DNA of 64,000 nucleotides. It comes from Paludisphaera mucosa (lineage in GTDB: Bacteria; Planctomycetota; Planctomycetia; Isosphaerales; Isosphaeraceae). The translations under genes were made by a program, and so were the position numbers. Positions 7,884-16,705 of the stretch are shown piece after piece (within the stretch, counting starts at the first letter, position 1; the number at the start of each line of letters is the position of its first letter). The stretch lies in contig NZ_JARRAG010000001.1 of NCBI RefSeq assembly GCF_029589435.1, positions 2,284,808-2,348,807 of the forward strand, in the 5' to 3' direction. A model generated the notes under the pieces. That model saw nothing but the letters and a program-made list of their open reading frames with translations. It ran no database searches and was not told the origin of the DNA.

Positions 7884-8402
7884 ATGAGCCCGCCCATGCA
7901 GAAGCCGCGACTTACGGTCCTCGACGTCGTCGCCCTGGTGATCGGCGCGGCGGTGGCGCTGATGCACCTTAGGCCCGTCGTGGAGCCCGGGTTCTCGGCG
8001 GCCGGCCTGTTCGTGGGGCTGCCGGTCTTCCTCTGGCTGGCCGCCACCGCGTCCGGGCCGTGCCTCGCCGTCGCCCGCCGGTTCGGCCCCCGAAAGCCCC
8101 TCGGCTCGCGGCTCGGCGAGGGGCTCTGGACCATCCTGGGGACGCCCTGGCTCCTGAGCGCGGCCGCTCGATCGATGCGGGGCGGGAGCGAGGGGGCCGG
8201 GAAGGTCGACTCCTGGATCCTGACCGTCGGCCTGGCGATGGCCTCATGCTGGGCCGCGGCCTCGGTCTACCACCACTGGATCGAAGCCTCGCCAGAGGAC
8301 GCGGCGCAGGTGGCCGGGGGCTCGTGGTCGAATCGCGTCGGCATGATCCTGGCGATCGCCTGGCCGATCCAGGGGGGCCTGGCCCTCATCGCGCTTTCCT
8401 GA
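7884..8402 (+). CDS. Small integral membrane protein of unknown function
   Basis: 172 residues with about four hydrophobic segments (VVALVIGAAVALMHL, SAAGLFVGLPVFLWLAAT, ILTVGLAMASCWAAAS, IGMxLAIAWPIQGGLALIAL-like) joined by a basic, glycine-rich loop. I do not recognise a family. It is transcribed divergently from der and ends 6 bases before the stop of the convergent GH57-like gene. Two in-frame starts (7884 and 7896) are possible; neither has a strong ribosome site. Confidence 0.6.
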   Translation: MSPPMQKPRLTVLDVVALVIGAAVALMHLRPVVEPGFSAAGLFVGLPVFLWLAATASGPCLAVARRFGPRKPLGSRLGEGLWTILGTPWLLSAAARSMRGGSEGAGKVDSWILTVGLAMASCWAAASVYHHWIEASPEDAAQVAGGSWSNRVGMILAIAWPIQGGLALIALS

Positions 8403-8408
8403 CGACGC

Positions 8409-9764
8409 TCAGCCGCCGGCCGCGACGTCCAGGTCGAGGTCCGGGAGGAACGCCGGGCCGCGGGGCCGCCGAATCCCCTCGCAACGGCCGGCCATGAGCG
8501 CGGCGGCCAGCTCGTAGAACCGCGCCAGGTGCTCGCCCCCCCGGCGAAGGCCCACGTCGGGCTCGATGCGGCCCTGGACCGGATAGGTCCAGTCGACCTG
8601 CTGGGCGCGGAGGAGGCATCGGAGCATCTCGGCGACGTTCTCGCGCTCGGGCCCGTTCAGGCCGCGGCGGCGCTCGATCGCGAAGGTCATCAGGTCGGTC
8701 GCGGCGCGACAGCGGTCGAACAGGTCCGAGCCGCCGGGCCGCGCCGCGAGGACGCCGCCAACGCTCACGCCGGGACGCCCCAGGGGCCCGGTGGGGTTGC
8801 GGGACAGGTAGCGGTCGAGCGACGAGACGCGCGCCGATTCGGCCCCGGCCAGGAGTTCCAGCAGCCGGCCCAGCCACGCGTCGCCGCCGCCCCGGGGCCA
8901 GGCCCTCGCCAGGTCGTGAGCCGAGATCGCCGCGACGGCGATCGGCTCGGCGGGGGCCTCGGCGCCGGGCGGGAGGGCCTCCGCCTGCTCGACCCAGCGG
9001 TCGAAGAAGTGCCGGGCGTGGTCGAACGCCGCGCGGGGGGCGTGATCGGGATCGGCGTAGCGGGGGTCCTGGCCGTAGCCCGAGTGGGGGTCGAGCGCCT
9101 GGGCGGCGGGCTGCGGCGAGACGGCGAAGGCGGCCACGCCGCTGGGCGTGACCATCGGCGCGAGCGTCCTGCCGGGCGGCAGGATCGTCCCGCGCAGGAA
9201 GACGTCGGCGGCGACGCCGAAGGACCGCAGGCCCTGCTCGGCCATCGCCGACTCCAGGCCCGGCGGATAACCCAGGAAGGGGAGCCAGACGCCCGACGGC
9301 CGGGCCTCGAAGCGCCGGGCGTGGTCGCGGGCGGCGAGCCCGACCTGCGCCCGCGCCACGATCGGGTCGGACGCGAGGCTGGGGAGCCAGGTGTGGGTGG
9401 CGGTGGTCGGGATGACGTCGATCGCGCCCGAGGCGTTCCACCGTCGCAGCAGGTCGAGCGCGTCGCCGCCCCGCGCCGCGGCGAAGAACCGCAGCAGCCC
9501 GCGGTCGGCCCGCCCCTGCTGCACCCGACGTTCCAGCTCCCTCCGCATGAGGGTCCGGGCGGTCGGGTCGGCGGCCAGGGCGGTCCAGCTCGGGCTGACC
9601 GCCAGGGTGATCGAGGCGTCGCCGGCGCGTTCGGCGAAGCCGTCGAGGGCGCGCAGCAAGGGCCAGTCGACCTCGACGCCCGCCGCGGCCCAGTCCGGCC
9701 CCGCGTCCCGGCCCGGGGCGGGGAGCGGGTGGTGGAATTCCAGGACCAGGGCCAGGCAGGGCAT
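8409..9764 (-). CDS. GH57-family (DUF1957) protein with apparently lost catalytic residues
   Basis: 451 residues. It follows the layout of GH57 1,4-alpha-glucan branching enzymes: ALVLEFHHPLP at 5-15 (family: ALVLHAHLPY), TATHTWLPSL at 121-130 (THxxLPLL), GVWLPFLGYPPGLE at 158-171 and a C-terminal helical domain. In active members the third motif reads WLPEC or WLAEC, with Glu as nucleophile; here position 163 is Phe. The acid/base Asp region (DTELFGHWW in the family) aligns to AHDLARAW near 282-289, apparently without the Asp and His. It is therefore probably a binding or scaffolding pseudoenzyme, or it has a different chemistry. It lies 44 bases downstream of the GT-DUF4912 gene on the same strand, so the two likely form one operon. 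Confidence 0.78.
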   Translation of the reverse strand: MPCLALVLEFHHPLPAPGRDAGPDWAAAGVEVDWPLLRALDGFAERAGDASITLAVSPSWTALAADPTARTLMRRELERRVQQGRADRGLLRFFAAARGGDALDLLRRWNASGAIDVIPTTATHTWLPSLASDPIVARAQVGLAARDHARRFEARPSGVWLPFLGYPPGLESAMAEQGLRSFGVAADVFLRGTILPPGRTLAPMVTPSGVAAFAVSPQPAAQALDPHSGYGQDPRYADPDHAPRAAFDHARHFFDRWVEQAEALPPGAEAPAEPIAVAAISAHDLARAWPRGGGDAWLGRLLELLAGAESARVSSLDRYLSRNPTGPLGRPGVSVGGVLAARPGGSDLFDRCRAATDLMTFAIERRRGLNGPERENVAEMLRCLLRAQQVDWTYPVQGRIEPDVGLRRGGEHLARFYELAAALMAGRCEGIRRPRGPAFLPDLDLDVAAGG

Positions 9765-9808
9765 GACGACTTCCAGGGCTCGGGGTGCGTGGGAGAGGTC
9801 GGGGCCGA

Positions 9809-11326
9809 TCAGACGCCGGGGCGGCGGGGCGCCACGCGGAGCCGCCGCGGGGGCGTCGCCGGGGCCGATCCCTCGCGGGGGAGGTGGCAGATCCGGGAGT
9901 GGGTCACGGGATGGAAGTAGCCCCATCGCGAGCGGACGCCCAGGCACGCGGCCAGCGAACGGCCGTCGAACGGCAGGGCGATCGTCCGGTGGGTCTCGCC
10001 CAGGCCCAGGTCCACGTCCGAGGCGTTGTGGGCGTTCAGGCCGTCGAAGGCCACGTCGGTCACGTCGAACAGCCGGATCGTCAGCACGGCGCGTGCGGCC
10101 TCGGGCCCCAGCCACTCCAGCGCGACCCGCCAGTCGTCGGGCCGGAGCGTCCACGACGCCAGCGCCTCGCGGCTCGACACCGGGATGAGCGTCAGCCGCG
10201 ACCGAAGCTCAGGGAACGCCAGGGCTTGCCGGGCCGGGGGCGGGGCCGACGCCGCCGGGCGGGCGTTCGGCTCGGGCGCGTTCCGCCTGCGATCGAGGAT
10301 GCGGAGATAGATCCTCAGCCATTCCGCGGCCACGCCGTCGGCGTCGATCCGGCGGCCTTCCAGGGCCGAGGCCAGGCGTACGTCGACCTCTCGACGCTCG
10401 CGATCGAACAGTGCGTCCAGGATGTCCCGACCGAACGCCTCGGCGTCTCGGCCTCGCAGGCGGACGACGGGCGCGCCGACCAGCCAGGCGGCGCGGGCGA
10501 ACGGGTCGTCGACCAGGTCGTCCGTCGCCGTCGCGACGACCGACGCCTGCGAGACGGCCCCGTTCCAGCGGCCCGCCGTCGGGACGCTCGTCTCGCCCCA
10601 TCGGGCCGAGAGCAGCCCTTCGGCCTTCAAGACCCGCCGCAGCCGATCGCAGCGGGCGGCCGTCCCGAAAACCGCAGCGACCAGGCCCGGCGCCTTCTCG
10701 CGCGCGGACTTGAGACCGGCGACGACGGCCCGGGGCGAGAAGCGGGCGCCGGCGTGCAGGGTCAGGACGACGCACGGGCCCTCGGCCGCGTCCCGTCGCG
10801 GACCTTCGCGATCGCTCCAGTGGGACAGCCCGGCTTGCGAGGGGATCGTGAAGATCGGCTCCTCGCCATCACGGCCGAGACCGAAGCCGGCGCGGAGCCG
10901 CTCGGCACCCCAGGGATGGTCGCAGATCCAGGCGTCGGGGGCCTGTCGGGGCCCGAAGCCGGGATCCTCGGCCTCCTCGTCCTCGGCCCGGTCCGAGGCC
11001 ACGACGACCGTCGGCCCGCCGCTTCGCGCGGCCAGCTCGCCGGCGGCCGGCCGGGACTTCCAGTCCATGGCGTGGACGACGTCGAAGTCGAAGCCCAGGC
11101 CCGACGTGCTCGCCACCCGGACCGTCCCCACGCCGAACGCGACCGCCTCGTCGCGCGGGCCGCCGCCGATCTGGTGCGGGCAGCGCACTTCCAGCCAGCC
11201 GGGATGGGCCTCGCGCTCGGGCTCGTCGGCGAACCAGCGCGTGAAGGCGACGACGTCGACGCCGAGCCGGCCGATCGCGTCGATCGTCTCGCGATCCAGG
11301 TCCCAACCCAGCAGAGCGATCCTCAT
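9809..11326 (-). CDS. GT-B-like glycosyltransferase fused to a C-terminal DUF4912 domain
   Basis: 505 residues. The start, MRIALLGWDLDRE, and the following Rossmann-like N-domain with DVVHAMDWKS near residue 82 resemble the N-domain of GT4/GT5 enzymes (starch synthase-like). A second Rossmann-like half follows (VVLTLHAGARFSPRAVVAGL). After a Pro/Ala linker near 355-370, residues about 373-490 match DUF4912: LTLIPVSSREALASW, LTIRLFDVTD, GYFHPVTHS. GGGGGA lies about 10 bases before the ATG. The order GT first, GH57-like second suggests a shared role with an alpha-glucan or an exopolysaccharide. The E-x7-E donor motif of GT4 is not evident, so catalytic activity is uncertain. Confidence 0.72.
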   Translation of the reverse strand: MRIALLGWDLDRETIDAIGRLGVDVVAFTRWFADEPEREAHPGWLEVRCPHQIGGGPRDEAVAFGVGTVRVASTSGLGFDFDVVHAMDWKSRPAAGELAARSGGPTVVVASDRAEDEEAEDPGFGPRQAPDAWICDHPWGAERLRAGFGLGRDGEEPIFTIPSQAGLSHWSDREGPRRDAAEGPCVVLTLHAGARFSPRAVVAGLKSAREKAPGLVAAVFGTAARCDRLRRVLKAEGLLSARWGETSVPTAGRWNGAVSQASVVATATDDLVDDPFARAAWLVGAPVVRLRGRDAEAFGRDILDALFDRERREVDVRLASALEGRRIDADGVAAEWLRIYLRILDRRRNAPEPNARPAASAPPPARQALAFPELRSRLTLIPVSSREALASWTLRPDDWRVALEWLGPEAARAVLTIRLFDVTDVAFDGLNAHNASDVDLGLGETHRTIALPFDGRSLAACLGVRSRWGYFHPVTHSRICHLPREGSAPATPPRRLRVAPRRPGV

Positions 11327-11561
11327 CGACGGCTTTCCCCCTCGCGGCGCGACGCTCCCGATCCCGGGCGGCCCATCTCACAGCGAACTATAACACGCGA
11401 GAATCTGGCGAGCCTCCTCCCGTCGGGCGATCTTTCCCGAGGACGTCGACCCTGCGGATTGCGCCGATCGCGACGACCGCCGTGCGGATATGGTTTTGCC
11501 CCGAACCCGTGAATCGCGTTTTCATTCGTCGATCCGGGCGCATCGTAAATGATATGGCATT

Positions 11562-11717
11562 CCCTTCTCCCATCGGGAGAAGGTGCCGCGCAGTGGCGGA
11601 TGAGGGTCGTGGGAGTTCGGAGGGGGGCGTCGAAATATGCGAGCGATACAGTTCTCGAAAACCCCCAACCCTCATCCGGCCCCTCGGGCCACCTTCTCCC
11701 GGCGGGAAAGGAGAAGG
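11562..11717. repeat. Inverted pair of about 46-50 base dispersed-type repeats
   Basis: The left copy (11562-11607) runs from CCCTTCTCCC through GGGAGAAGGTG to GGATGAGGGT. The right copy (11668-11717) is its reverse complement in outline: ACCCTCATCCGG, a GCCCCTCGGGCC stem, CCTTCTCCC and GGAGAAGG. Each copy has its own internal hairpin, and about 60 bases separate the two. Such ACCCTCATCC/CCTTCTCCC elements occur as extragenic palindromic (REP/MITE-like) families in many genomes; membership here is an inference from the pattern. No transposase is adjacent. Confidence 0.7.
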
Positions 11718-11775
11718 CCCCGGCCGCCATGTTCGAGAGGTCGAAAACGAATTTTTTTTCGACGAGCGAAGCCAA

Positions 11776-11816
11776 AATAAAAAGACGCAAGACCCTCAAG
11801 CAGAAGGCCTTGCGTC
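11776..11816 (-). terminator. Rho-independent terminator for the PpiD/SurA-like gene
   Basis: On the minus strand an eight-pair stem GACGCAAG/CTTGCGTC (11816-11809 with 11791-11784), whose loop can extend the pairing through CCT/AGG, is followed directly by TTTTTATTTT. It lies 64 bases past the stop codon at 11880. Confidence 0.8.
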
Positions 11817-11879
11817 CATAATCGATTTCGCACGCGGGGCGAAGGAAGCCAATTCGAAGCCGATCCCGGAGGAAGCGCC

Positions 11880-13763
11880 TCAGCTCTGGGCGGCGTCGTC
11901 GTCCTTGGCGTTCTCGTCGGGCGGAGCCCAGTCGGCGGGGAGGCCGGCGTCGCGGCGGAGGCGGTTCATCCAGGACTCGTCCTGGTGGGCGGCCGCTTCC
12001 TCGCCGGCCAGGGCCCGGTAGCGCATCTCCTCGCCGTTGGGGGCGTAGAGCTGGGCGAAGTCGACCGGCTCGCGACGGTCGAGGGCGAGCACGTAATAGG
12101 AGGTCTTGGGCTCGTTGGGGGCGACGGCCGTCTCGCCGTCTCGCAGGCCGAAGTAGGCGTTGCGGAAGGCCTCGCCGGCGAACGGGACGTCGGGGATCGG
12201 GGTCTCGGCCTGGGCCACGTACTCGAACGGGTTGGCCCCGACGCCGCCCATCTGCTTGCGGGTGATGGGGGCGATCGCCAGGACGTTGTAGCCGTCGACC
12301 TGGTCCTCCTCGATCTTGCCCTTCTTGTCGGCCTTCAGCCTGGCCGCCAGCTCCTGGGCGGCCTTCTCGGCCAGCGGCCGGGCCTTGTCGAGCTTCCAGG
12401 CATGGACGACGTCGGCCTTCACCTCGTCGAGCGAGGGGATCCGGGGGGCCTCGTCCTTGATCTTGCGGGCGAGGTAGCGGGCGCCGGTGATGCCGGTCAG
12501 CTCGACCGGCTCGTAGAGGCCGACCTTGGGGTCGAAGAACTCGTCGACGAACTTGCGGCCGCCGCTGAAGCGGGCGGTGCCGACCTGGGAGTTGGCGATG
12601 AGGCCGTAGCGGGCGGCCTGCTCGCGCGACAGGAGCGGCGAGATCTCGTAGGCGAGGCCCTCCGCGGCGGCGATCGCCTTGAGGTCGACGTCCTTCGGGG
12701 CCTCGACCTTGGCGCCGGGCGCGGAGGCCTGCTCGTCGAGCATCGTCAGGTAGGCGTCGGCGAACGGGATCAGCTTCTCGTCGCGGATCTTGTTGAAGAG
12801 GTCGTTGATCTCGGCCTGGGCCTTCTCGTCGGCGAGCCGGCTGGCCAGCAGCTCGCGGACCTCGGCGAAGGGCTGGATCACGGCGGGGGTCAGGTCGGGG
12901 GCGTCGGCGAACAGGTCGTCGGGAAATTCCGAGGGGACCTTGAACTCGTTCTTATGGTTTTCGTAGAAAGCCTGGAGTTCGGCGGCGGGGAGCTTGTCGC
13001 GGAGGGCGCGGGCCTTGGCGTCGCCTTCGACGGTGGCGAACTCGACCTGCACCCGCCGCGGGACCTTGAAGCCGGGCGTCGCGAGCGCCGGGTCGGGCAG
13101 GACGTCCTTGTACTTGTCGTAGAGGGCCTGCACCTCGGCCTGGGACGGCTCGCCGACCTTGCCCAGGAAATTCTCGACGGGAATTTCGACCACCTTGTCG
13201 GCGACCCGTTCGCCCTGGCCGCGGTAGGCCTGGAAGGCGTCGTAGGGGGTCACCAGGGGCCGGCCCGGCAGGGTGCGGACCTTGGCGATCCGGACCTGGT
13301 TGGCGATGTCGGCGAGGAGGTCTTCCTGGCTGATCTCGTTGCTGAAGCGGCTGTAGAGGGACTCGAAGACCTCGCGGTTCATCCGCCCGCCGGTGGCCGC
13401 CAGCAGCCACTCGCGGCCGGCGGCGGCGTCGGCGGGCATCCCCAGGCGGTCGGCCTCCTTCTCGAGGATCAGGGCGTCGATCAGGTCGCGCTCCTTGAGC
13501 CCGCCGAAGGCGTCGCGGCTGAACGGGAAGAGGTTCAGGGCGTTGGCGACCAGGTTGGCGCGGGAACGCTGGCGGGCCATCTGGCCGAGGTCGCTGCGGT
13601 GGACGGTGCGGCCGAACAGCTTGGCCACCTCCACGTCGCGGGCGGCGTAGCTGGGGCTCAGCAGGCGGGGCAGGCTGTCGGCGAGGACGAAGGTGAACAT
13701 CGCCAGGATGGCGAGGATGGCCAGCATCTTACGCTGGTGGCGGCGGAAGACCTCGAAAGGCAT
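11880..13763 (-). CDS. Membrane-anchored PpiD/SurA-like periplasmic chaperone
   Basis: 627 residues. One N-terminal membrane helix (residues about 13-30, MLAILAILAMFTFVLA) is followed by a helical region like the SurA N-domain (ARQRSRANLVANALNLF..., LIDALILEKEADRLGM near 88-110) and a long helical tail rich in Lys, Glu and Ala. This is the PpiD layout: anchored in the inner membrane, facing the periplasm and helping outer-membrane protein folding. I do not see a parvulin signature (GGDLGW or GFHI-type), so it may be a chaperone without prolyl isomerase activity. GAGGATC precedes the ATG. A terminator follows, and it is divergent from topA. Confidence 0.7.
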   Translation of the reverse strand: MPFEVFRRHQRKMLAILAILAMFTFVLADSLPRLLSPSYAARDVEVAKLFGRTVHRSDLGQMARQRSRANLVANALNLFPFSRDAFGGLKERDLIDALILEKEADRLGMPADAAAGREWLLAATGGRMNREVFESLYSRFSNEISQEDLLADIANQVRIAKVRTLPGRPLVTPYDAFQAYRGQGERVADKVVEIPVENFLGKVGEPSQAEVQALYDKYKDVLPDPALATPGFKVPRRVQVEFATVEGDAKARALRDKLPAAELQAFYENHKNEFKVPSEFPDDLFADAPDLTPAVIQPFAEVRELLASRLADEKAQAEINDLFNKIRDEKLIPFADAYLTMLDEQASAPGAKVEAPKDVDLKAIAAAEGLAYEISPLLSREQAARYGLIANSQVGTARFSGGRKFVDEFFDPKVGLYEPVELTGITGARYLARKIKDEAPRIPSLDEVKADVVHAWKLDKARPLAEKAAQELAARLKADKKGKIEEDQVDGYNVLAIAPITRKQMGGVGANPFEYVAQAETPIPDVPFAGEAFRNAYFGLRDGETAVAPNEPKTSYYVLALDRREPVDFAQLYAPNGEEMRYRALAGEEAAAHQDESWMNRLRRDAGLPADWAPPDENAKDDDAAQS

Positions 13764-14008: not shown

Positions 14009-16705
14009 GTGCCTCCAAAGTCCTCTCCCAAGTCCGCGCCCAAGTCCGGCGACGCCGCCAAGCCCAAGGCGGCCAAGACCGCCACGCCCCGCGCCAAGAC
14101 GGCGTCCGCCAAGGGGGCGGCCGGCAAGGGTTCGCGAACGAAAGCGGCCTCCGCTTCCGCCGGGACGCCGGGCACCGGCCCCTCGCTGGTGATCGTCGAG
14201 AGCCCCAAGAAGGCCAAGTCGATCAACAAGTTCCTGGGCTCCAGCTACATCGTGAAGGCGAGCATGGGCCACGTCCGCGACCTCCCCAAGCGCAAGCTGG
14301 GCCTGGACGTCGCCAACGGCTACGCCCCGTCGTACGAGGTCGTCCCGGCCAAGAAGGACACGATCGGCGACCTCAAGCGGGACGCCGCCCGGGCCGACGT
14401 CGTCTACCTGGCGACCGACCCCGACCGCGAGGGGGAGGCCATCGCCTGGCACCTCCAGCACGCCCTCGACCTGCCCGACGACCGGGTCCGCCGCGTGACG
14501 TTCCACGAGATCACCGAGCGGGCCGTGCGGGAGGCCTTCACGAAGGTCGGCCCGATCAACATGGACATGGTCAACGCCCAGCAGGCCCGGCGGTTCCTCG
14601 ACCGCTTCGTGGGCTACCAGCTCAGCCCCCTGCTCTGGAAGAAGGTCGCCCGCAACCTGAGCGCCGGGCGGGTCCAGTCGGTGGCCACCCGGCTGATCGT
14701 CGACCGCGAGCGGGAGATCCGGGCGTTCGTCCAGGAGGAGTTCTGGAAGATCACCGCCACCGTCTCGCCGGCCGGCTCCGCCAAGGAGGACGAGCGGTTC
14801 GAGGCCCTGCTGACCGAGTACGAGGGCAAGAAGTTCGAGGCCAAGACCGAGGCCGACGCCCACAAGGTCCGCGACGTCCTGGCGTCCGCGCCCTACGTCG
14901 TCGCCAAGGTCGAGGAGGCCGAGAAGCTCGACCGGCCCGAGGCCCCGTTCAAGACGAGCACGCTCCAGCAGCAGGCGGCGATCCGCCTGCGGTCTTCGGG
15001 CAAGAAGACGATGCGGACCGCCCAGGAGCTGTACGAGGGCATCGACGTCGACGGCTCGGGCCCGACCGGCCTCATCACCTACATGCGGACCGACAGCCTG
15101 CGGGTCTCCGACGAGGCCGTGACCAGCGTCCGCGACCTCATCAAGGACCGCTACGGCGACCGCTACGTGCCGGCCAAGCCCAACCGCTACGCCGCCGGCA
15201 AGAACGCCCAGGAGGCCCACGAGGCCATCCGCCCGACCGACCTGGCGCTCTCGCCGGAGCGGGTCCGCGAGCGGCTCAGCCACGACCAGTTCCGGCTGTA
15301 CCAGATGATCTACAACCGGTTCGTCGCCAGCCAGATGACGCCGGCCGTCTTCACGGTCACCGACGTCGTCATCCAGGCCGGGCCGGGCCTCTTCAAGGCC
15401 CAGGGCAAGATCCTCCGGTTCGACGGCCACCGCCGGGTCTGGGCCGCGTCCGGCAAGCAGGAGGACGCGCTGCTGCCGCCGATCAAGGTCGCCGACCCCC
15501 TGGACCTCCAGAACCTGGACGCCACCCAGCACTTCACCCAGCCGCCGCCGCGCTACAGCGAGGCGACCCTGATCAAGGCGCTCGAGAAGGAGAACATCGG
15601 CCGGCCCTCCACCTACGCCCCGATCATCCAGACGATCCAGGACCGCAAGTACGTCGAGCACAAGGACCGGCGGTTCTTCGCGACTGAGCTGGGCATGGTC
15701 GTGACCGACGTCCTGGTGAAGCACTTCCCCAAGATCCTGGACCTGAAGTTCACCGGCCACATGGAGGACGAGCTCGACGACATCGCGACCGCCAAGGAGG
15801 ACATGATCAAGGTCCTCGACGAGTTCTACTACCCGTTCCAGGACGCCCTCAAGGCGGCCGAGACCCAGATGGAACGGGTGCAGATCGCGACCGACGAGAT
15901 CTGCCACGTCTGCGGCGCGCCGATGGTCATGAAGTTCGGCCGCACGGGCGAGTTCCTGGGCTGCTCGAAGTACCCCGACTGCAAGGCGACCCGGCCGATC
16001 GGCGGCCAGCCCCGCGCCGAGGCCGTCGACAGCGGCCACGCCTGCCCCAAGTGCGCCAAGCCGCTCTTGATCCGCGAGAACAAGAAGGGCGAGAAGTTCC
16101 TCTCCTGCTCGGGCTACCCCGAGTGCAAGGAGTCGTTCGACATCGACGACCAGGGGAACCCCGTCCCCAAGCTCACCGAGACCGACCAGAAGTGCGAGAA
16201 GTGCGGCAAGCCGATGGCCCTGCGGAACGGCCGGCGCGGGCCCTTTTTGGGCTGCACCGGCTATCCCAAGTGCCGCAACATCGTGGCCGTCGACGCCGAG
16301 GGGAAGCCCCTGCCGACCGTCAAGATCGACATCAACTGCGAGAAGTGCGGCAAGCCGCTGGCCGTCCGCCAGGGCAAGCGCGGGGCCTTCCTGGGCTGCA
16401 CCGGCTACCCCAAGTGCCGCAACGCGGTCCCCGTCCCCGACGAGCTGAAGGACGAGGTCGCCAAGCTGGCCCCGCCCCCGGCGGCCGCCAAGGGGCCCGA
16501 CTTCAAGTCGCTCGAGATCGACGAGACCTGCGACGACTGCGGCGGCCCGATGACCCCGCGCAAGGGGCGGCGGGGCTACTTCCTGGGCTGCTCGAAGTAC
16601 CCCAAGTGCAAGGGGACCAAGGAGCCGAGCGCCGAGACGCTGGAGAAGATCAACGCGGCCGTCGTCCAGGCCGAGTCGGCCGAGGCCGCGGCCGCGGCCG
16701 ATTGA
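14009..16705 (+). CDS. topA: DNA topoisomerase I (type IA) with five C-terminal zinc ribbons
   Basis: 898 residues from a GTG start. A Lys/Ala-rich, probably disordered extension of about 55 residues precedes the Toprim domain (LVIVESPKKAKSI, catalytic Glu65; TDPDREGEAIAWH supplies the DxD). The active-site tyrosine is Y358 in GLITYMRTDS. The C-terminus carries five topoisomerase C4 zinc-ribbon repeats, each CxxC...CxxYPxC (for example CHVCGAPMVMKFGRTGEFLG and CDDCGG...), against three in E. coli. The enzyme relaxes negative supercoils. It ends 23 bases before the convergent acpS gene. Confidence 0.97.
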   Translation: MPPKSSPKSAPKSGDAAKPKAAKTATPRAKTASAKGAAGKGSRTKAASASAGTPGTGPSLVIVESPKKAKSINKFLGSSYIVKASMGHVRDLPKRKLGLDVANGYAPSYEVVPAKKDTIGDLKRDAARADVVYLATDPDREGEAIAWHLQHALDLPDDRVRRVTFHEITERAVREAFTKVGPINMDMVNAQQARRFLDRFVGYQLSPLLWKKVARNLSAGRVQSVATRLIVDREREIRAFVQEEFWKITATVSPAGSAKEDERFEALLTEYEGKKFEAKTEADAHKVRDVLASAPYVVAKVEEAEKLDRPEAPFKTSTLQQQAAIRLRSSGKKTMRTAQELYEGIDVDGSGPTGLITYMRTDSLRVSDEAVTSVRDLIKDRYGDRYVPAKPNRYAAGKNAQEAHEAIRPTDLALSPERVRERLSHDQFRLYQMIYNRFVASQMTPAVFTVTDVVIQAGPGLFKAQGKILRFDGHRRVWAASGKQEDALLPPIKVADPLDLQNLDATQHFTQPPPRYSEATLIKALEKENIGRPSTYAPIIQTIQDRKYVEHKDRRFFATELGMVVTDVLVKHFPKILDLKFTGHMEDELDDIATAKEDMIKVLDEFYYPFQDALKAAETQMERVQIATDEICHVCGAPMVMKFGRTGEFLGCSKYPDCKATRPIGGQPRAEAVDSGHACPKCAKPLLIRENKKGEKFLSCSGYPECKESFDIDDQGNPVPKLTETDQKCEKCGKPMALRNGRRGPFLGCTGYPKCRNIVAVDAEGKPLPTVKIDINCEKCGKPLAVRQGKRGAFLGCTGYPKCRNAVPVPDELKDEVAKLAPPPAAAKGPDFKSLEIDETCDDCGGPMTPRKGRRGYFLGCSKYPKCKGTKEPSAETLEKINAAVVQAESAEAAAAAD

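Follow-up and report, generated by a model that had tools for sequence, protein, structure and literature searches.

GH57 proteins without catalytic residues are already on record. Martinovicova and Janecek (2018; PMC6037648) describe, in the part of their article drawn on here, a GBE-like GH57 group of 60 bacterial sequences in which one or both catalytic residues are missing; these are of the branching-enzyme type, as is the protein presented below, with a listed length of 520 amino acids, and the GH57 pseudoenzyme as a kind is thus already published. In the portions of the literature seen, such inactive GH57s have been catalogued without an assigned function. The main text of the same article names no planctomycetes and no DUF4912, and the part drawn on describes no inactive partner. 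A further article (PMC5352709) gives GH57 counts of four for Paludisphaera borealis and two for Isosphaera pallida, with no remark on catalytic residues in the part of that text drawn on. In open-licence full texts, we found no description of a paired loss in a GH57 protein and a partner, and none of a function for DUF4912.

The window analyzed here, a stretch of 64,000 nucleotides from the 8.2-Mb genome of Paludisphaera mucosa, carries an open reading frame with an ATG start at 9764 and its end at 8409 on the minus strand. It encodes a 451-residue GH57 branching-enzyme-like protein without catalytic residues (P0002; 8409–9764, minus strand), as assigned from Pfam, a PDB match and orthologues. 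A first-pass annotation had placed a GH57-like protein at these positions; the reading frame is real, and its location is the minus strand. The Pfam GH57 model (PF03065) matched P0002 with an E-value of 5.5e-6 (26.4 bits, over the family cut-off of 21.2) and matched nine of the ten orthologues introduced below at E-values up to 0.1. In the PDB, phmmer matched P0002 to AmyC (2b5d; E 6.3e-25), and by sequence the protein belongs to the same family as AmyC and TK1436 (3n8t) over most of its chain. The GH57 branching enzymes of known structure used for comparison are AmyC of T. maritima (2b5d), TK1436 of T. kodakarensis (3n8t) and TT1467 of T. thermophilus (1ufa and 3p0b). The NCBIfam model for Thermus-type branching enzymes gave 66.9 of 920 bits, far under its cut-off. 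The BE_C C-terminal domain was matched in nine of ten orthologues at E-values up to 0.1, weakly and below the cut-off in P0002, and of its Ser-Asp-Trp all ten orthologues retain Asp-Trp while the Ser is gone from all ten. Structure predictions, from two-row alignments in each case, reached mean pLDDT values of 40.5 (GH57-like protein) and 32.0, and the models were left unused.

The first-pass annotation had also proposed that both catalytic residues were lost, and our alignments bear this out. The nucleophile motif GVWLPFLGYPPGLE occupies residues 158–171 (9252–9293, minus strand), as claimed, with Phe163 (codon 9276–9278, minus strand) at the place of the nucleophile, AmyC Glu185. At the acid/base place, AmyC Asp349, stands Ser281 (codon 8922–8924, minus strand), next to AHDLARAW (residues 282–289; 8898–8921, minus strand), a remnant of the acid/base motif near which the Asp had been reported missing. 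Three alignments, made by phmmer, by matching a ten-row profile to 2b5d and by running MAFFT L-INS-i on the orthologues together with 28 canonical GH57s, all placed F163 on Glu185 and S281 on Asp349, ungapped around both. Misalignment as the source of the missing residues was ruled out by the concordance of the three methods. For the canonical set, 392 genomes of the phylum were searched and 30 loci were taken for their best hits; 28 were used, the window's own locus and L066, which is split by a stop codon, being omitted (the L066 pieces still show both catalytic residues). In the MAFFT alignment, the nucleophile Glu and the acid/base Asp are present in 28/28 canonical planctomycete GH57s, but in none of the ten GH57-like Isosphaeraceae orthologues, a contrast that chance does not explain. 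In order, the orthologues read F F F F S F F F H F (F8 S1 H1) at the nucleophile place and S S S S S S S P A S (S8 P1 A1) at the acid/base place. As to whether homologues share the Phe, a point raised in the first-pass annotation, the catalytic Glu is gone from all ten, but Phe itself is found in only eight, with Ser and His elsewhere.

As judged from these alignments, the loss extends past the two residues noted earlier to the polariser His, Arg237, Trp356, Ser462 and the segment after residue 238. The acid/base polariser, His in 27/28 canonical proteins with one gap, is Glu9 (codon 9738–9740, minus strand) in nine orthologues and Leu in one; the polariser role of His10 and the near-active-site residues are taken from Table 1 of PMC6616209, the part of that article drawn on. 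The ten orthologues carry V or I in place of Arg237, one of A, G, D, N or R in place of Trp356, one of V, L or I in place of Ser462 and one of Y, L, M, T or S in place of Phe466. Nine of the ten lack the segment that follows residue 238, where L026 carries its own insert. Compared with AmyC, TK1436 and TT1467, the GH57-like protein therefore replaces nucleophile, acid/base residue, polariser, Arg237, Trp356 and Ser462, but has in common with them His12 (H11), Trp28 (W25) and the near-active-site Asp463 (D391; codon 8592–8594, minus strand), in mixed TK1436/AmyC numbering, all three of which are retained in 10/10 orthologues. The place of AmyC Trp246 is Trp in no orthologue and Phe in two, and Trp402 sits in an insertion that is unaligned relative to the orthologues; Trp411 aligns to an Arg column, a placement that is uncertain because the MAFFT column is Asn in 27/28 canonical proteins. 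Several aromatic groove residues are lost, so that the original glucan cleft has probably not survived intact; their loss argues against a simple glucan reading through it.

Among 105 columns that are near-invariant in the canonical proteins (27 or more of 28), the canonical residue is absent from all ten orthologues at 49, to which the deleted segment after residue 238 contributes in part; 30 are kept by nine or ten orthologues, including H11, W25, D391 and W392, and the rest are mixed. Conversely, 24 columns are invariant among the ten orthologues and present in at most 5/28 canonical proteins. H11, H12, R191 and D391 occur in all ten, and D284 (Asp in nine, Glu in the tenth), three residues past the acid/base place, aligns to a canonical Leu. 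As nucleophile, acid/base residue and polariser are all replaced in the alignment, the protein is unable to carry out GH57 chemistry in the known way.

The GH57-like search matched 12 of the 45 genomes of the order. One match (G004) was judged by eye to be a different GH57-like protein; the others comprise ten complete orthologues, the window's included, and one contig-end fragment recognized by ORF reading (G025), so that the GH57-like gene and its partner are confined to 11/45 genomes. The ten orthologues fall into four genus groups, the other nine being 37–78% identical to P0002, and the pair is retained down to less than 40% identity. In a midpoint-rooted tree of 38 proteins, they cluster as a single clade (100/100) whose stem measures 1.24 changes per site; several rows of this tree deviate in composition, and the two most distant orthologues are long branches. 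The simplest reading is a single loss followed by maintenance. Nei-Gojobori dN/dS ratios between the window and five congeners were 0.32–0.35 for the GH57-like gene and 0.24–0.36 for the partner, lower in the DUF4912 part of the latter, synonymous change in this GC-rich DNA being probably underestimated. The neighboring gene at 11880–13763 gave 0.34–0.47 (four genomes), the GH57-like gene thus being no laxer, and the gene at 14009–16705 gave 0.18–0.25 (three genomes). The single clade, dN/dS of about 0.33 and the 24 newly fixed residues argue that the GH57-like family is maintained and is not decaying. A scan of viral contigs with the ten-row GH57-like profile found no relative.

Directly upstream of the GH57-like gene, on the same strand and across a gap of 44 nt, lies the gene of its partner, a 505-residue protein with a GT4-like domain fused to DUF4912 (9809–11326, minus strand; Pfam and locus comparison). 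The tie to a DUF4912 protein proposed in the first-pass annotation is real: the domain (PF16258; residues 376–487; 9866–10201, minus strand) matched Pfam at E 9.2e-12 (45.7 bits versus a cut-off of 29.4), all eleven partner copies matched at E-values up to 0.1, and the partner adjoins the GH57-like gene in 11/11 carriers. A second DUF4912 copy is found in 11/45 genomes of the order, the same eleven that have the GH57-like gene, fragment included. The other strongly matching DUF4912 protein, at C2:3359971-3360324 in the window's genome (G000), has equivalents such that it is represented in 43/45 order genomes, pair or no pair.

The GT4-like half of the partner comprises residues 1–350 (10277–11326, minus strand). 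Pfam GT4 matched it below cut-off, in five of eleven copies, with a best value of 0.003. A profile of ten of the eleven GT halves (L026, the most divergent, was omitted) found matches in seven of 294 genomes of the phylum besides its own, at 5.5e-6 to 2.0e-5 per genome; four of those seven proteins scored 1.3e-8 to 3.4e-8 among 79 ORFs of nine fetched loci, and Pfam classes all four of these best-scoring relatives as GT4. The matches span the N-domain, and the C-domain, the site of EX7E, aligned with a negative HMMER score and no significant match. In this weak C-domain alignment, Leu271 and Ala279 stand at the EX7E place (10490–10516, minus strand) instead of two Glu; across the eleven copies, the first place reads L L L L A P P P P A P, with Glu in none, and the second, equally weakly aligned, A A A A A A L L K K E, with Glu only in L026. 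Independently of this alignment, no conserved Glu pair eight apart was found in the ten-row GT half, the conserved Glu being E39, E60 and E142, and the Gly-rich loop is a gap in all ten rows aligned. The designation of the partner as glycosyltransferase-like needs adjustment: its N-domain is homologous to GT4, but EX7E appears to be gone from ten of eleven copies and half-lost in L026. We conclude that the partner probably lacks the usual GT4 chemistry, given that EX7E, whose place is weakly anchored, and the Gly-rich loop were not found. With the GH57 residues gone from one protein and EX7E apparently from the other, both look catalytically silent.

Direct descent of the GT half from glycogen synthase was not supported: hhalign against a synthase-DUF4912 fusion gave a probability of 2.6 and E 0.017 over 38 columns. 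Searching the PDB with the GT-half profile likewise left a synthase parent unsupported, with a UDP-GlcNAc 2-epimerase as best match (0.093) and glycogen synthases at about 0.5. By sequence comparison, GT4 appears to be the better parent. Two of the four GT-half relatives, L112:1411-2607 (+) and L114:1354-2595 (+), are GT4s of the planctomycete family f36 that carry D and S where EX7E would have its two Glu, and are possibly inactive GT4s too.

Eight carriers, the window included, share at least part of the window's neighborhood, the genes of which we label, presumptively, TopA-, SurA/PpiD- and Der-like. In L025 and L026 the flanking genes differ and the pair is still together; L027 is too short to judge. 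Ten proteins encoded beside the pair in L025 and L026 were scanned, and none had a recognizable role in glucan metabolism. A promoter scan of 8300–11900 found none, and a terminator-like site upstream of the pair (11817–11783, minus strand) is at chance level. Convergent with the GH57-like gene is the gene of a 172-residue hypothetical protein (7884–8402, plus strand) with no significant Pfam match, which is also present in the loci of four congeners and in both g2 loci.

DUF4912 and GH57 are associated well beyond this pair. Among 49 other planctomycete genomes with a GH57 match, chosen from the upper part of the 392-genome search list, DUF4912 is present in 48, and in 41 it is no more than 3 kb away from a GH57; it is equally close to 19 of the 28 GH57s verified to carry the catalytic E and D. 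In all twelve loci picked for DUF4912-GH57 adjacency (L094–L105), DUF4912 is directly upstream of the GH57 on the same strand. In one genome (G094; L105:4156-6402 (-)), a GT5 glycogen synthase is fused to DUF4912, which scored just below the cut-off in one Pfam scan and above it in another; the fusion gene immediately precedes a GH57 whose motifs are intact. A second genome (G069; L116/L121) encodes a protein 55% identical to this fusion over residues 3–662, again before an intact-motif GH57, and the fused synthases retain the stretch EPCGLNQLYAM. In nine further genomes (G241, G313, G304, G338, G362, G354, G285, G170 and G138), DUF4912 lies about 200 nt from GH57 in frames of about 755–862 residues, which look like DUF4912-GH57 fusion proteins. 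The GH13 branching-enzyme model matched all 45 order genomes, 43 above cut-off, indicating that glycogen branching has another provider. Besides a match to the GlgB model, carriers of the pair possess other GH57s; in the window's genome, three such genes are located at C2:186886-188163, C2:190389-191090 and C1:2023561-2024265, the protein encoded by the last also bearing a DUF3536 domain.

On these results, the pair has the appearance of a glucan-synthesis module in which catalysis has been silenced. The two genes would be co-transcribed, given their common strand and 44-nt gap, and the pair may have descended from, or been modeled on, the widespread DUF4912-GH57 pair and its synthase-fused form; that gene context, together with the synthase fusions, points to alpha-glucan synthesis and branching. 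We suggest, with roughly even confidence, that the GH57-like protein and its partner form a complex in which binding was kept and catalysis lost. Such a complex might hold an alpha-glucan or a related oligosaccharide; alternatively, it might dock onto the functional glucan enzymes that other loci of the genome encode, and scaffold or regulate them. It is gene context, accordingly, from which we infer a role of the pair in glucan metabolism, be it binding, scaffolding or regulatory. Counting against a complex of this kind are the lost groove aromatics, the lack of recognizable glucan neighbors in L025 and L026, the restriction to 11/45 genomes, the limitation of significant GT4 homology to the N-domain, the one Glu kept in L026 and the low pLDDT of the models. 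A more far-reaching version, for which we would put the chances somewhat short of even, is a two-protein pseudoenzyme complex: a whole GT4-DUF4912 plus GH57 module would have lost catalysis in the synthetic as well as the branching subunit and then been kept as a non-catalytic sensor, primer-holder or scaffold. In a bolder form, E9, H11, H12, R191 and D391 would be the core of a GH57 pocket rebuilt for a new reaction.

Several other explanations bear on the same observations. A non-catalytic pair could have reused its folds for a ligand other than alpha-glucan, such as another envelope glycan or a protein. The loss of Trp at the AmyC Trp356 and Trp246 places in all ten orthologues, the unaligned Trp402, the deletion after residue 238 and the presence in carriers of a GlgB-model match and other GH57s are all compatible with this view, but DUF4912 near GH57 in 41/49 genomes and its fusion to glycogen synthase in two speak for a glucan, and we regard a different ligand as unlikely, albeit worth keeping in mind. 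In line with the alternative named in the first-pass annotation, that other residues are used, the active site might instead have been rebuilt for a different reaction via E9, H11, H12, D284, R191 and D391, perhaps together with the partner. Conservation of E9 and D284 in nine of ten orthologues (Glu replacing D284 in the tenth), invariance of the other four, the newly invariant columns and purifying selection on the gene would be expected under such rebuilding; however, one orthologue has Leu at position 9, the conserved residues are scattered along the chain, and the partner's own catalytic motif has apparently gone too, so that we consider a rebuilt site doubtful.

Branching or amylase chemistry could also persist with shifted substitute carboxylates, for instance D284 as the acid/base, a carboxylate being present at that position, three residues from the acid/base place, in every orthologue. 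Yet the three ungapped alignments set D284 on a canonical Leu, the nucleophile place offers F, S or H and no carboxylate, and the polariser His, Arg237 and Ser462 are replaced throughout, making this very improbable. Hardly any weight attaches to a pseudogene pair in decay: absent catalytic residues and a distribution limited to 11 of 45 genomes, one with a contig-end fragment, might suggest it, but the frames are open across 451 and 505 residues, dN/dS is about 0.33 and lower in the DUF4912 part, and adjacency is conserved in four genus groups. We reject this reading on the dN/dS ratio and the newly fixed residues. The complex with retained binding and lost catalysis is the explanation that we prefer.

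A GH57 pseudoenzyme with a fixed partner that apparently lacks its motif too would make the role of a carbohydrate pseudoenzyme testable in Paludisphaera, where the fixed partner is combined with the availability of cultured strains. Moreover, the synthase fusion in two genomes and the proximity to GH57 in 41/49 suggest that the uncharacterized domain DUF4912 is an accessory to alpha-glucan synthesis.

A comparable pairing exists in mycobacteria, where Rv3032 (GT4) and Rv3031 (GH57), both presumed active, act on one polysaccharide, methylglucose lipopolysaccharide. To our knowledge, no DUF4912 is associated with Rv3032/Rv3031. Rv3031 is described as DUF1957/GH57 in the part of PMC3089613 drawn on. 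The planctomycete DUF4912-GH57 loci (L094–L105 and L116) share with the Isosphaeraceae pair the gene order, with the DUF4912 or GT-DUF4912 gene upstream on the same strand. In contrast, the catalytic E and D are intact in those of their GH57s that were checked, and EPCGLNQLYAM is retained in their fused synthases, whereas the Isosphaeraceae pair has lost the GH57 residues and apparently also the motif of the GT half.
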